Assembly: GCF_010384365.1 (NCBI RefSeq)
Contig: NZ_CP048397.1
Location: 1,736,001-1,800,000 of the forward strand
Direction: 5' to 3'
DNA from: Streptomyces sp. S4.7
GTDB taxonomy: Bacteria; Actinomycetota; Actinomycetes; Streptomycetales; Streptomycetaceae
Length of the DNA: 64,000 nt
The translations under genes and the position numbers were made by a program. Every line of letters starts with the position of its first letter. The first letter of the stretch is position 1. Positions 7,649-39,986 of this stretch are shown here, one piece after another. The notes under the pieces were generated by a model. The model made no database searches. It was not told the DNA's origin and worked only from the letters and a program-made list of their open reading frames with translations.

Positions 7649-10795
<3,147 letters not shown>

Positions 10796-10831
10796 CGACG
10801 GGGGCGGGGATCCGGCCCCGCGCGAGCGAAA

Positions 10832-37143: not shown

Positions 37144-37686
37144 TCACCCAGCGGCGCCGCCCTTCTCCGGCTGTTCCGCCCGGGGCTGGGGCAGTACCGG
37201 TTCGAGCACGAGCAGCCGCTCCACGAGGCGCAGGAACATGGCCACGTCGCGCAGCAGGTCGTCGGCGTCGCGGCTGCTCGCCGCGCCCTGTATGCCGGCC
37301 TCGGCCCGCGCCCTGCGGGTGGCTCCGGAGGCGAACAGGGCGCTCCATTCGGTCAGCTCGGGCACGATCTCGGGCAGCACCTCCCAGGCGCTCCTTATGC
37401 GCCTGCGGCGCGGGCCGGTCGTGGGCTCGGGCCGGCCACGGGCGGCGAGGACCGCCGCGGCGGTGCGCAGGGCGGCCAGATGGGCCGTGGCATAGCGCTC
37501 GTTGGGGGTTTCGAGGGTGGCGGCCTCGTCCAGCCCCGTACGGGCCTGGGCGAGCAGGTCGAGGGCGGCGGGCGGCGCGGTCGCGCGCCGCAGAACGGGG
37601 TGGACGTCGGTCGCGGGGCCGGTCAGCGAGGGGGCAGGGCCGCCTGTGCTTCGCCGGCGTGCGGCTGCGGCGTAGGAACTGGCCAT
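37144..37686 (-). CDS. SAV_6107-family HEPN domain protein
   Basis: A 180-residue, largely helical protein matching the actinobacterial SAV_6107 HEPN family: ALDLLAQARTGLDEA, then ERYATAHLAALRTAAAVLAAR near 70-90, a helical pair also seen in nucleotidyltransferase-associated HEPN proteins. The RxxxxH RNase motif of toxin HEPN proteins is not evident, so RNase activity is not supported. The ATG has AGGAGG six bases upstream. No antitoxin-like MNT partner lies beside it. Function unknown. Confidence 0.8.
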   Translation of the reverse strand: MASSYAAAARRRSTGGPAPSLTGPATDVHPVLRRATAPPAALDLLAQARTGLDEAATLETPNERYATAHLAALRTAAAVLAARGRPEPTTGPRRRRIRSAWEVLPEIVPELTEWSALFASGATRRARAEAGIQGAASSRDADDLLRDVAMFLRLVERLLVLEPVLPQPRAEQPEKGGAAG

Positions 37687-37810
37687 GACGAACCTCCTGG
37701 TCGTCTCTGTGACGGCTCTGTGGCCGTATGTGTCCATCGTGGAGCACACCACTGACAATCCGCCCTGACCTGCACTTTTGTCTCACCGGCAGGTTCGGAG
37801 TAGTTTTTGA

Positions 37811-37824
37811 ACTGACTGGTCAGT
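37811..37824. promoter_or_regulatory. TetR-type operator before the ABC fusion gene
   Basis: ACTGACTGGTCAGT has perfect 6-base arms around TG, in an AT-richer patch 31 bases upstream of the ATG of the ABC fusion gene. Short palindromes of this kind are typical TetR-family sites, and a TetR gene lies at the end of the same transcript. Confidence 0.6.
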
Positions 37825-37854
37825 ACAAGAAAGTGCGAGCTCTGGGGAGGGCGT

Positions 37855-39324
37855 ATGGGAGCCGGGCCGACCGATGAGGCGGTCGCCGAACCGCACGGCG
37901 CGGCAGTCGTGGCCGAGGGGCTCGGACTGAAGGGACCGCGCGGCTGGGTCTTCCGTGACGTCGATGTCGACGTACGTCCCGGCGGGATCCTTGCGATCGA
38001 GGGCCCCTCCGGCTCGGGCCGCACCTGTCTCCTGCTGGCGCTCACCGGGCGGATGCGCCCCACGGACGGATCCGCGGGGATCGGCGGCCTGCGGGTACCG
38101 CGCGCGATGGCCGCCGTGCGCCGTATCAGCGCGCTGGGCCCGGTCACCGGTGTCAGCGAACTCGACCCTGCCCTGACCGTCGCCGAACACCTCCGTGAAC
38201 GCGTCCTGTTGCGCCGCCGCTACGACACCTCCTTGGGAGGCGCGCTCCGCGCCCTGCTGCGGCCCCGTTCCGAACGCGCCGCCGAGAGGCGGCTCCGTAC
38301 GGACGACGCACTGGTGGCGGCGGAACTCGACCTCGCGGCCCTGCCCAAGGGCGCCCGTACCTCCGTACGCGATCTGGAACGGCTGGAGGCGCTGCGCCTC
38401 TCGGTGGCTCTGGCACTCATCGGCCGGCCGCGCCTGCTCGCCGTGGACGACCTCGACCTCAAGCTCTCCGACGCCGAACGGGCCGCGGCCTGGGACCTGT
38501 TGAGGTCGGTGGCCGCCGACGGCACGAGCGTCGTCGCGGTCTGCGGCCGGGCGCCCGCCGGCATCGACACCGTCCGGACGGCCGGCGCACCCCGCCGGGC
38601 CGGACGGACCGAAGCCGTGGCGAAGATCCCCGATTACGACAAGAACGAGCGCGACCTCCGTACGGAGGTGATGGCCGACCCCGTCCGGCTCGCCTCCCGC
38701 TCCACGCACGAGGCGCCCAACTACGGCACCGGTTTCGCCCCTTACTTCATCCCGCTCTCGCTCTGGGTCGGCGCGATGGTGGCGTACATGCTGATCCAGC
38801 CGCTCAACCGGCGTGCCCTCGCGGCCGGTGCCGCCGCCTGGCGGATCGCCGTCGCGGGCTGGCTGCCGGTGGTGGGCATCGGACTGCTCCAGGTGGGCGC
38901 GCTGATGTCCGTACTGCACTGGGGACTTGGCCTCCAGATGACGCGCGCCGCCGGTACGGTCGGCTTCCTGGCACTGGTCACCTGCTGCTTCGCGGCGATC
39001 ACGCAGTGGCTGAACGCCCGCTTCGGGGCCGCGGGCCGGATCCTCGTCCTGGCCGTGCTGATGCTCCAGCTGACCTCGGCCGGCGGCACCTACCCCGTAC
39101 AGACGAGCCCCGGCTTCTTCAACGCCATCCACCCCTTCCTGCCGATGAGTTACGTCGTGGAGTCGCTGCGCGTCCTCATCACGGGCGGCGGGCTCGGACC
39201 GGTCCGGCAGGGCTGCGCCGTACTCGCGGCGTTCACCGCGGGCGCGCTCGCGCTGACCACCGTCGCCGCGCGCCGCGGACAGGTGTGGACCCTCGACCGT
39301 CTCCATCCCGAATTGCGGCTGTGA
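37855..39324 (+). CDS. ABC ATPase fused to the C-terminal half of a YhgE/Pip-type permease
   Basis: A 489-residue protein with two parts. Residues 18-242 are an ABC-type ATPase: Walker A GPSGSGRT (50-57, Arg where Lys is usual) and Walker B RLLAVDDLD (193-201); the LSGGQ signature is replaced by RDLERLEALRLS. Residues about 256-489 match the C-terminal membrane domain of YhgE/Pip-type permeases (KIPDYDKNERDLRTEVMADP, then GTGFAPYF and five or six transmembrane helices, ending LDRLHPEL). From memory, Streptomyces usually has two separate genes here, a short ATPase and a permease of about 700 residues; the permease's first half is absent. The joint is near residues 243-256 (about 38581-38622). 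The ATG has GGGGAGGG upstream. Confidence 0.85.
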   Translation: MGAGPTDEAVAEPHGAAVVAEGLGLKGPRGWVFRDVDVDVRPGGILAIEGPSGSGRTCLLLALTGRMRPTDGSAGIGGLRVPRAMAAVRRISALGPVTGVSELDPALTVAEHLRERVLLRRRYDTSLGGALRALLRPRSERAAERRLRTDDALVAAELDLAALPKGARTSVRDLERLEALRLSVALALIGRPRLLAVDDLDLKLSDAERAAAWDLLRSVAADGTSVVAVCGRAPAGIDTVRTAGAPRRAGRTEAVAKIPDYDKNERDLRTEVMADPVRLASRSTHEAPNYGTGFAPYFIPLSLWVGAMVAYMLIQPLNRRALAAGAAAWRIAVAGWLPVVGIGLLQVGALMSVLHWGLGLQMTRAAGTVGFLALVTCCFAAITQWLNARFGAAGRILVLAVLMLQLTSAGGTYPVQTSPGFFNAIHPFLPMSYVVESLRVLITGGGLGPVRQGCAVLAAFTAGALALTTVAARRGQVWTLDRLHPELRL

Positions 39325-39362: not shown

Positions 39363-39986
39363 ATGGACAGCAGCAGCACCCGCCGGCGGGCCACCCGACA
39401 GAAGCTCTACGAGGCCGCGGTGACACTCATCGCCGAACAGGGCTTCTCGGCGACGACCGTCGACGAGATCGCCGAGCGGGCCGGAGTCGCCAAGGGCACG
39501 GTCTACTACAACTTCAAGAGCAAGACCGAGCTGTTCGAGGAGCTTCTGCGGCACGGCGTCGGCCTGCTCACCGCCTCCCTGCGGACCGCCGCCGAGGAGA
39601 CGGCGGAGCGCGACGGGACCAGCGTGGAGGCGCTGGACGCCATGATCCGGGCGGGGCTCGCCTTCATCGACCGCTATCCGGCGTTCACCCAGCTCTACGT
39701 GGCCGAACTCTGGCGCACCAACCGCGCGTGGCAGTCCACGCTGCTGGTGGTGCGTCAGCAGGCCGTCGCCGTCGTGGAGAAGGTGCTCCAGGAGGGGATC
39801 GACGGCGGTGAGCTGAGCCGTGAGATCGATGTCCCGCTGACCGCCGCCGCGCTGGTGGGCATGGTGCTGGTGGCGGCCCTGGACTGGCAGGCGTTCCAGC
39901 CCGAGCGGTCGATCGACGACGTGCACTCGGCGCTCTCGTTACTCCTGCACGGACGGGTCGGCGGAAGCGGACCCGTTCCTCACTGA
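39363..39986 (+). CDS. TetR family transcriptional regulator with a TTA codon
   Basis: A 207-residue TetR regulator. The N-terminal HTH is textbook: TVDEIAERAGVAKGTVYYNF (about 32-51), with a ligand-binding domain after it. It follows the ABC fusion by 38 bases and probably represses that operon through the palindrome at 37811. In the C-terminal part SALSLLLHG, the first Leu of LLL is a TTA codon (39939-39941), the only in-frame TTA I found in the window by eye; in Streptomyces this makes translation depend on the bldA tRNA. The ATG at 39363 fits the family N-terminus; an open frame further upstream lies inside the fusion gene and is rejected. Confidence 0.93.
   Translation: MDSSSTRRRATRQKLYEAAVTLIAEQGFSATTVDEIAERAGVAKGTVYYNFKSKTELFEELLRHGVGLLTASLRTAAEETAERDGTSVEALDAMIRAGLAFIDRYPAFTQLYVAELWRTNRAWQSTLLVVRQQAVAVVEKVLQEGIDGGELSREIDVPLTAAALVGMVLVAALDWQAFQPERSIDDVHSALSLLLHGRVGGSGPVPH

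Follow-up and report, generated by a model that had tools for sequence, protein, structure and literature searches.

The closest described relatives of the membrane protein considered here are the YhgE/Pip phage infection proteins (Lactococcus lactis Pip, YjaE, Enterococcus faecalis PIP and Bacillus subtilis YueB), and the members of this family in Firmicutes are phage receptors. In the published passages on these proteins, E. faecalis PIP is described as having six membrane helices with an external domain between helices 1 and 2, and truncations in the external variable region of that protein abolish infection (PMC4999554). A phage-insensitive L. lactis mutant carries a 487-bp deletion in pip, and inactivation of pip was reported to have no apparent effect on the host (PMC5156332). 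The passages on the Firmicutes proteins in these two papers (PMC4999554, PMC5156332) mention no fused nucleotide-binding domain (NBD). A search of titles and the first parts of abstracts returned no paper on the role of YhgE/Pip proteins in Streptomyces. A second point of comparison is given by the ABCG half-transporters, in which one chain carries an NBD and, after it, an ABC2-type membrane domain; ABCG proteins have six membrane helices and intact catalytic motifs.

In this study we analyse a stretch of 64,000 nucleotides from Streptomyces sp. S4.7 (hereafter the window) in which an NBD and only part of a YhgE/Pip permease are encoded by one gene. We find by sequence comparison that a single recent deletion of 1,414 bp probably turned a two-gene membrane system, itself probably controlled by a TetR-family regulator, into one predicted dead-end protein. 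Among the matches listed, the proteins closest to the two parts are P0003 (NBD, 274 aa) and P0002 (permease, 695 aa), which are separate proteins of the same relative, Streptomyces sp. IB2014 016-6, and at 98% and 97% identity respectively they indicate that the fusion is more than chance. The features of the locus are as follows.

37144-37758, reverse strand: SAV_6107-like HEPN protein, a neighbour that marks the slot (PF18726, 127.1 bits; found in 77 of 80 relatives).
37807-37828: inverted repeat TTGAACTGACTGGTCAGTACAA, 5' of the fused gene, by sequence comparison a likely TetR operator.
37855-39324, forward strand: fused gene of 489 codons, ATG to TGA, with an NBD-derived front and the C-terminal half of a YhgE/Pip protein.
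37855-38616, forward strand: NBD-derived part, codons 1-254, with 5 differences from P0003 in 254 residues; relative to P0003, the NBD gene has lost its final 20 codons together with its stop.
About 38614-38617, forward strand: junction, with the crossover between ...GAAGCC and GTGGCGAAG..., 1,414 bp being missing relative to intact relatives.
38617-39321, forward strand: permease-derived part, equivalent to residues 461-695 of the intact YhgE/Pip protein, with 3 differences from P0002 in 235 residues.
39363-39986, forward strand: TetR-family regulator, intact, 207 aa (PF00440, 71.5 bits; found in 80 of 80 relatives and in 277 of 295 Streptomyces genomes).

The frame at 37855-39324 is uninterrupted, with GGGGAGG shortly 5' of its ATG. 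A first-pass annotation made from the letters alone had described it as an NBD joined in frame to the C-terminal half of a YhgE/Pip permease, and the profile matches bear this out: residues 34-199 match ABC_tran (PF00005) at 39.8 bits (cut-off 25), and residues 271-475 match the YhgE/Pip C-terminal domain (TIGR03062) at 231.1 bits, far above the cut-off of 102.2. The same annotation had called the frame and its GC bias intact, and with third-position GC of 0.854 in the NBD part and 0.915 in the permease part the fused frame does look coding. Other membrane profiles are entered only part of the way along, PF12698 (fusion residues 276-468) from position 145 of 347 and PF01061, which scores 26.6 bits and so falls just below its cut-off of 26.9, from position 60 of 211. 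The N-terminal domain of the family, TIGR03061, is not among the best 25 of 106 families for the fusion; the intact relative P0002, like YhgE/Pip proteins, carries it (residues 10-172, 193.7 bits). The fusion thus shares TIGR03062 with the Firmicutes proteins and differs from them in lacking the N-terminal domain, helix 1 and, save for its very end, the external domain that phages use. As to ABC proteins, it has the ABC_tran domain and fold of an ABC ATPase and the ABCG-type order of NBD then membrane part in one chain, whereas the six-helix ABC2 domain of ABCG proteins and the six helices of a YhgE/Pip permease are both predicted, by hydropathy and a structure model, to be reduced to five.

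In related Streptomyces the ATPase, the permease and the TetR regulator had been described in the first-pass annotation as three genes, and this is the norm we find. The NBD match lies 5' of the permease match, and a TetR gene lies on the same strand, in all 80 Streptomyces loci compared, and the NBD and permease occupy different frames in 78 of these, sharing a frame only in L046 and L082, both with a full-length permease. Both genes are within reach in 84 loci (the 80, the window's own and three more), and 81 of these have a permease 694-722 aa long, the exceptions being the window's own locus, L027 (a broken frame covering residues 1-695) and L037 (a 785-codon frame covering 6-695, its start not recognized); every match listed in other genomes has an open frame of at least 698 codons. 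The idea that a two-domain length like that of the fusion might be the norm of the genus was looked for across the 84 loci and found no support. In 70 of the 84 loci the end of the NBD gene and the start of the permease gene share 29 nt; the overlaps counted in the literature passages concerned (-8 to +10 nt) are shorter, so the overlap speaks only weakly for an NBD-permease complex. Set against the intact operon, as in IB2014 016-6 (P0003 and P0002) or in G368 (locus L159), the nearest genome found, which shares with the window the neighbours, the operator-like repeat and the TetR gene, the difference is plain: there two genes (for an NBD of 274 or 293 aa and a permease of 695 aa) encode six predicted helices and a large external domain, and here one 489-codon gene lacks helix 1 and most of that domain.

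Several loci were considered as natural counterparts. Six frames of 917-1016 codons (L162, L164-L168) resembled full-length NBD-permease fusions and were rejected, each being in fact two genes in different frames. At L082 (3784-6720, Streptomyces sp. DHE7-1) the NBD and a full-length permease do form one frame of 979 codons, through a change of frame in the NBD tail, which is either a real full-length fusion or a sequencing error. In L027, L046 and L163 the NBD frame is in pieces through apparent frameshifts (in L027 the permease frame also), and the rest of the operon remains; since mutation and sequencing error look alike at such sites, L082, L046, L163 and L027 were left out as parallels of the fusion. 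A stop lies within the best NBD match in L053 and L077, where the rest of the operon likewise remains.

Two comparisons put the missing piece at 1,414 bp, in agreement with the first-pass estimate of roughly 1.2-1.5 kb, in which the deletion took the end of the ATPase gene with the external half of the permease. In the protein comparison, NBD residues 1-254 are followed directly by permease residue 461 of IB2014 016-6, an estimate that assumes the 29-nt overlap of the relatives and agrees with the protein ends in that strain; the DNA comparison with G368, in a register chosen from the same residues, gives the same figure. A plain blastn alignment to G368 leaves a gap of 1,441 bp, 27 above this value, and we read the excess as extra 9-bp repeat units in the G368 NBD tail, 5' of the junction. 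Because 1,414 is of the form 3n+1, its loss joins two genes lying in different frames, and about one third of random deletions would give such an open join. In G368 the two donor sites agree at 9 of 15 bases, a likeness reached by 1.9% of random 15-mer pairs, and among the 20 largest of 28 repeat families no direct repeat of at least 14 bp joins them. Nor does the lost part seem to have moved: a search with permease residues 1-453 finds nothing outside this locus in the 7.94 Mb genome at E 10 or better, and translocation was rejected on this ground; the fused locus is the only site in the genome above the TIGR03062 cut-off, with seven weaker ABC2-like matches.

The fusion appears to be confined to this lineage. 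Of 5.8 billion proteins searched, 7,997 were scored as candidates, 4,671 of them at E 1e-30, and none of the best 120 of these 4,671 spans more than 75% of the fusion, those that reach 75% being full-length 695-aa permeases; a close fusion of the same length would be expected at top rank, with the reservation that the window's own protein is also not among the 120 listed, its genome perhaps being absent from the database. The only other short protein with an NBD and helices among the matches listed is P0046 (376 aa, from a metagenomic contig of 3.9 kb), which aligns to fusion residues 16-489 at 50% identity with 102 gap positions and which we read as an NBD front and helices 2-6 linked by about 35 residues foreign to the family. 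We judged it a broken or chimeric copy and not a parallel fusion, though it could point to some reason for such stumps to arise repeatedly. A further match, P0112 (352 aa), is a permease without its front. The junction 31-mer occurs in 7 of 206 loci compared, all seven from the window's own genome, and we infer from these comparisons that the deletion is lineage specific and recent.

Substitution counts on the two parts bear on the age of the event. With L009 as outgroup, the window branch has 9 synonymous and 0 amino-acid changes in the permease part (G368 has 6 and 4, with 5 codons ambiguous) and 11 and 7 in the NBD core (G368 has 7 and 4, with 16 ambiguous), where pairwise dN/dS is 0.51 between the window and G368 and 0.29-0.31 between either and L009. 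Residues private to the fusion number 0 of 235 in the membrane part and two within NBD residues 18-254, one of which is residue 157, where the fusion has Glu and 76 of 76 aligned relatives have Gly. Decay is not visible in the permease-derived part. Much or most of the window branch may predate the deletion, however, and if so the counts speak for a probably recent event and not for a working product.

The NBD itself has lost the residues expected of an ATPase. Aligned with ABCA4, the fusion has Arg in place of the Walker A Lys, reads LERLE where ABCA4 has LSGGM, and carries Asp at the catalytic Glu site (motifs GPSGSGRT, RDLERLE and VDD), and neither the fusion nor any aligned relative has a His at positions 226-235, presumably the H-loop, the ABCA4 alignment stopping just short of it. 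It is therefore without all four hallmarks of a functional ATPase, namely the Walker A Lys, the LSGGQ signature, the catalytic Glu and the H-loop His. Among 93 loci, all 92 that align at the Walker A Lys site have Arg there, and all 90 that align at the catalytic Glu site have Asp. Since the catalytic residues are wanting in every aligned relative, there was probably no conventional ATP-driven pump to minimize, and the intact pair itself probably does not work as a textbook ABC pump. The NBD family that is paired with YhgE/Pip (window 37855-38616; L009-L088 and L159-L171) has the appearance of a conserved ABC pseudo-ATPase. It is found in 158 of 197 genomes of an order-wide sample and in one of six genera, every genome listed belonging to the window's genus and the other five genera being thinly tested, and, going by these counts, it is kept in most of the genus despite the lost catalytic hallmarks.

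The membrane part raises a separate difficulty. Hydropathy averaged over 35 intact permeases gives six helices, at 22-40, 502-520, 542-560, 571-589, 596-614 and 660-678, the layout also described for E. faecalis PIP in the published passage (PMC4999554). The fusion retains the last ~40 residues of the external domain followed by predicted helices 2-6, that is, five helices by hydropathy and by model, with one further hydrophobic segment, 179-197, inside the NBD. By the family layout, the retained part is predicted to begin outside the membrane, and with a cytosolic NBD ahead of it helix 2 would enter the membrane from the wrong side. In the 35 permeases the would-be inward loops average 6.9, 3.1, 1.0 and 3.8 Lys+Arg and the short outer loops 0.9 and 2.0, the outer values being spread over 10 and 45 residues respectively and so poorer for their length than the inner ones, while the large external domain averages 60.1 Lys+Arg and 68.7 Asp+Glu. 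In the fusion the 3.1, 1.0 and 3.8 loops would then lie out and the 0.9 and 2.0 loops in, and such charges are described as setting the orientation of most membrane proteins (PMC3962082, in the passage concerned). This argument combines hydropathy, charge counts and an AlphaFold2 model in which the five long membrane helices score pLDDT 59-73, falling to 36-46 at 401-430. The model as a whole (mean pLDDT 70.4, pTM 0.54) predicts the NBD at pLDDT mostly 79-97, with dips to 54-56, and residues 245-300 below 50; its top full-length fold matches are ABCG half-transporters, weakly so (TM-score to query 0.33-0.40, rmsd ~20 or more). A model of the intact permease (pTM 0.31) is too weak to carry weight. 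When the permease profile is compared with solved structures, the best 60 of 103 matches are mostly coiled-coil proteins and include no ABC2-type permease.

The regulatory surroundings are whole. The inverted repeat at 37807-37828 is the only match in the 7.94 Mb genome at up to 2 mismatches, and 65 of the 66 relatives in which the NBD gene was placed (14 of 80 were not placed) carry it 5' of that gene with no more than 3 mismatches; being unique in the genome and shared by the relatives, it is likely the TetR operator. The operator-like repeat, the start site and the TetR gene are all intact at the fused locus, which suggests that the dead-end protein is probably still made and that the stump probably remains under the old TetR control. 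Promoter and terminator scans of the locus, which are uninformative for Streptomyces, found nothing, and defence-system models gave only weak matches (mad8 at 27.6-28.6 bits, mad3, mad1 and PDC-M05B).

The pair is missing altogether from part of the genus. Of the 295 Streptomyces genomes sampled, among them that of the window, 245 contain a match to at least one half of the fused protein (E 1e-40) and 277 a match to the TetR protein (E 1e-60). The 50 genomes that match neither half, 48 of them among the 288 that are at least 90% complete, comprise 33 with a TetR match and 17 without either, and on these counts the NBD-permease pair is dispensable. We opened four pair-less slots (L207, L208, L209 and L210), three in genomes among the 33 and one in G010, which has one weak match to the fused protein in its genome (E 1.1e-44). 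The methyltransferase and TetR genes remain in all four and the HEPN gene in two; the pair is absent from all four, as is the repeat core when up to 2 mismatches are allowed. The TetR gene thus often outlasts the adjoining pair (a TetR match in 33 of the 50 pair-less genomes), with the operator-like repeat gone in the four opened slots, and a TetR gene without the pair may have another target or be a relic.

The mechanism we propose would begin with illegitimate recombination at a site of low homology and the loss of 1,414 bp, after which the frame would have stayed open by a one-in-three chance, running from NBD codons 1-254 into permease codon 461 onward. The product, made once TetR lets go, would be an NBD on a floppy linker followed by five helices unable to all insert correctly, and it would be without the function of the intact system and either degraded or inert. 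What was lost would itself have been unusual, a Pip-like protein with a large coiled-coil external domain and an NBD without ATP-hydrolysis residues. In favour of such a dead-end remnant we count the absence of the pair from 50 of 295 genomes, which marks it as dispensable, and the Gly157Glu change at a site invariant in the relatives; against it we count the open frame, the absence of amino-acid changes beside 9 synonymous ones in the permease part, the intact regulation and P0046 as a second short protein of this kind.

Other explanations of the locus have to be weighed. An assembly or consensus error, with two intact genes in the real strain, would explain why the sister strain IB2014 016-6 is intact at 97-98% identity and why, among the matches listed, no protein covers more than 75% of the fusion, but we hold it unlikely: the 7.94 Mb genome is in only 3 contigs and the fusion lies on one of 7.92 Mb, which makes for a highly contiguous assembly, the window and G368 run colinear across the 64 kb, flanks of the junction included, at 94.9-96.2% identity with the fusion site as the largest gap, the shared repeat of at least 14 bp that a repeat collapse would need is missing from the 20 largest of 28 families, for which reason such a collapse was rejected, and an error would have to make a clean 1,414-bp loss in the one of three frames that stays open. 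The fusion is thus very likely real as sequence. Granted this, the first-pass annotation had offered either a one-piece minimal transporter or a decayed remnant. A working, dimerizing half-transporter of the ABCG kind would suit the order of the domains, but it strikes us as very improbable indeed, because helix 1 went with the deletion, leaving an odd number of helices, five predicted against six in the family, with PF01061 and PF12698 entered only from 60 of 211 and 145 of 347; because an NBD in the cytosol would require the helix bundle to insert the other way round from what its charges favour; because the linker at 245-300 is predicted at pLDDT under 50; and because the NBD, here as in its aligned relatives, is without the Walker A Lys, signature, catalytic Glu and H-loop His. 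ABCG proteins differ from the fusion on both counts, helix number and catalytic motifs. The remnant half of that earlier proposal fits better, with little of the decay it spoke of visible yet. It is very unlikely, in turn, that the NBD keeps a non-catalytic job for which the five helices serve only as a membrane anchor; the well-predicted NBD fold and the retention of a catalytically degenerate family in most of the genus would agree with this, and the 29-nt overlap, which weakly suggests a complex with an intact permease that is now lost, and the Gly157Glu change at an invariant site speak against it. The joined protein is, as far as the models go, likely a broken remnant and not a working mini-transporter.

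A further possibility, raised by analogy with Lactococcus and Enterococcus Pip, is that the deletion was selected because it removed an external domain used in phage entry, the stump being a by-product. The effects of pip truncation and deletion in those genera, and the absence of an apparent cost to L. lactis, are what would be expected; the middle of the external domain is also its least conserved stretch (mean identity to P0002 0.60, against 0.83 for the C-terminal part, over 34 rows), and the low-confidence model of the intact permease gives weak matches to 2ch7 (rank 2, E 8e-4) and to 3cni (rank 49, E 0.35), entries named for Pip and YjaE in the cited passage (PMC5156332). We nevertheless regard selected loss as improbable, since a search of titles and abstracts turned up no Streptomyces phage that uses a YhgE/Pip protein, dN/dS over the external domain is 0.30-0.33 and not above 1 (one pair of relatives), the intact model has a pTM of only 0.31, and plain loss by drift accounts for the data equally well. 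The wider claim, drawn from the same analogy, that the Streptomyces YhgE/Pip protein is a phage entry receptor with a genus-wide pseudo-ATPase partner and that this strain carries a natural phage-escape allele, in which a single deletion took helix 1 together with a phage-binding external domain and left a harmless in-frame stump under TetR, is decidedly unlikely; if it were true, the repeated loss of the pair with TetR left behind would be the same phage escape carried to completion.

On the preferred reading of a deletion remnant, the fusion is a damaged allele of a known operon type and not a new class of transporter. It offers a clean natural deletion allele that splits off helix 1 and the external domain from the remainder of a YhgE/Pip protein, and it comes with two observations that hold across the genus, an NBD partner that is kept without its catalytic hallmarks and a TetR gene that often outlives the pair. 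It is also a warning for annotation, as a database would probably label the fusion an ABC transporter. Elsewhere in the window, the second-largest gap relative to G368 falls at 10801-10828, where ~514 bp present in G368 are absent and 28 bp align on both sides; it lies directly 3' of the frame at 7649-10795, which we take to be an isoleucyl-tRNA synthetase.
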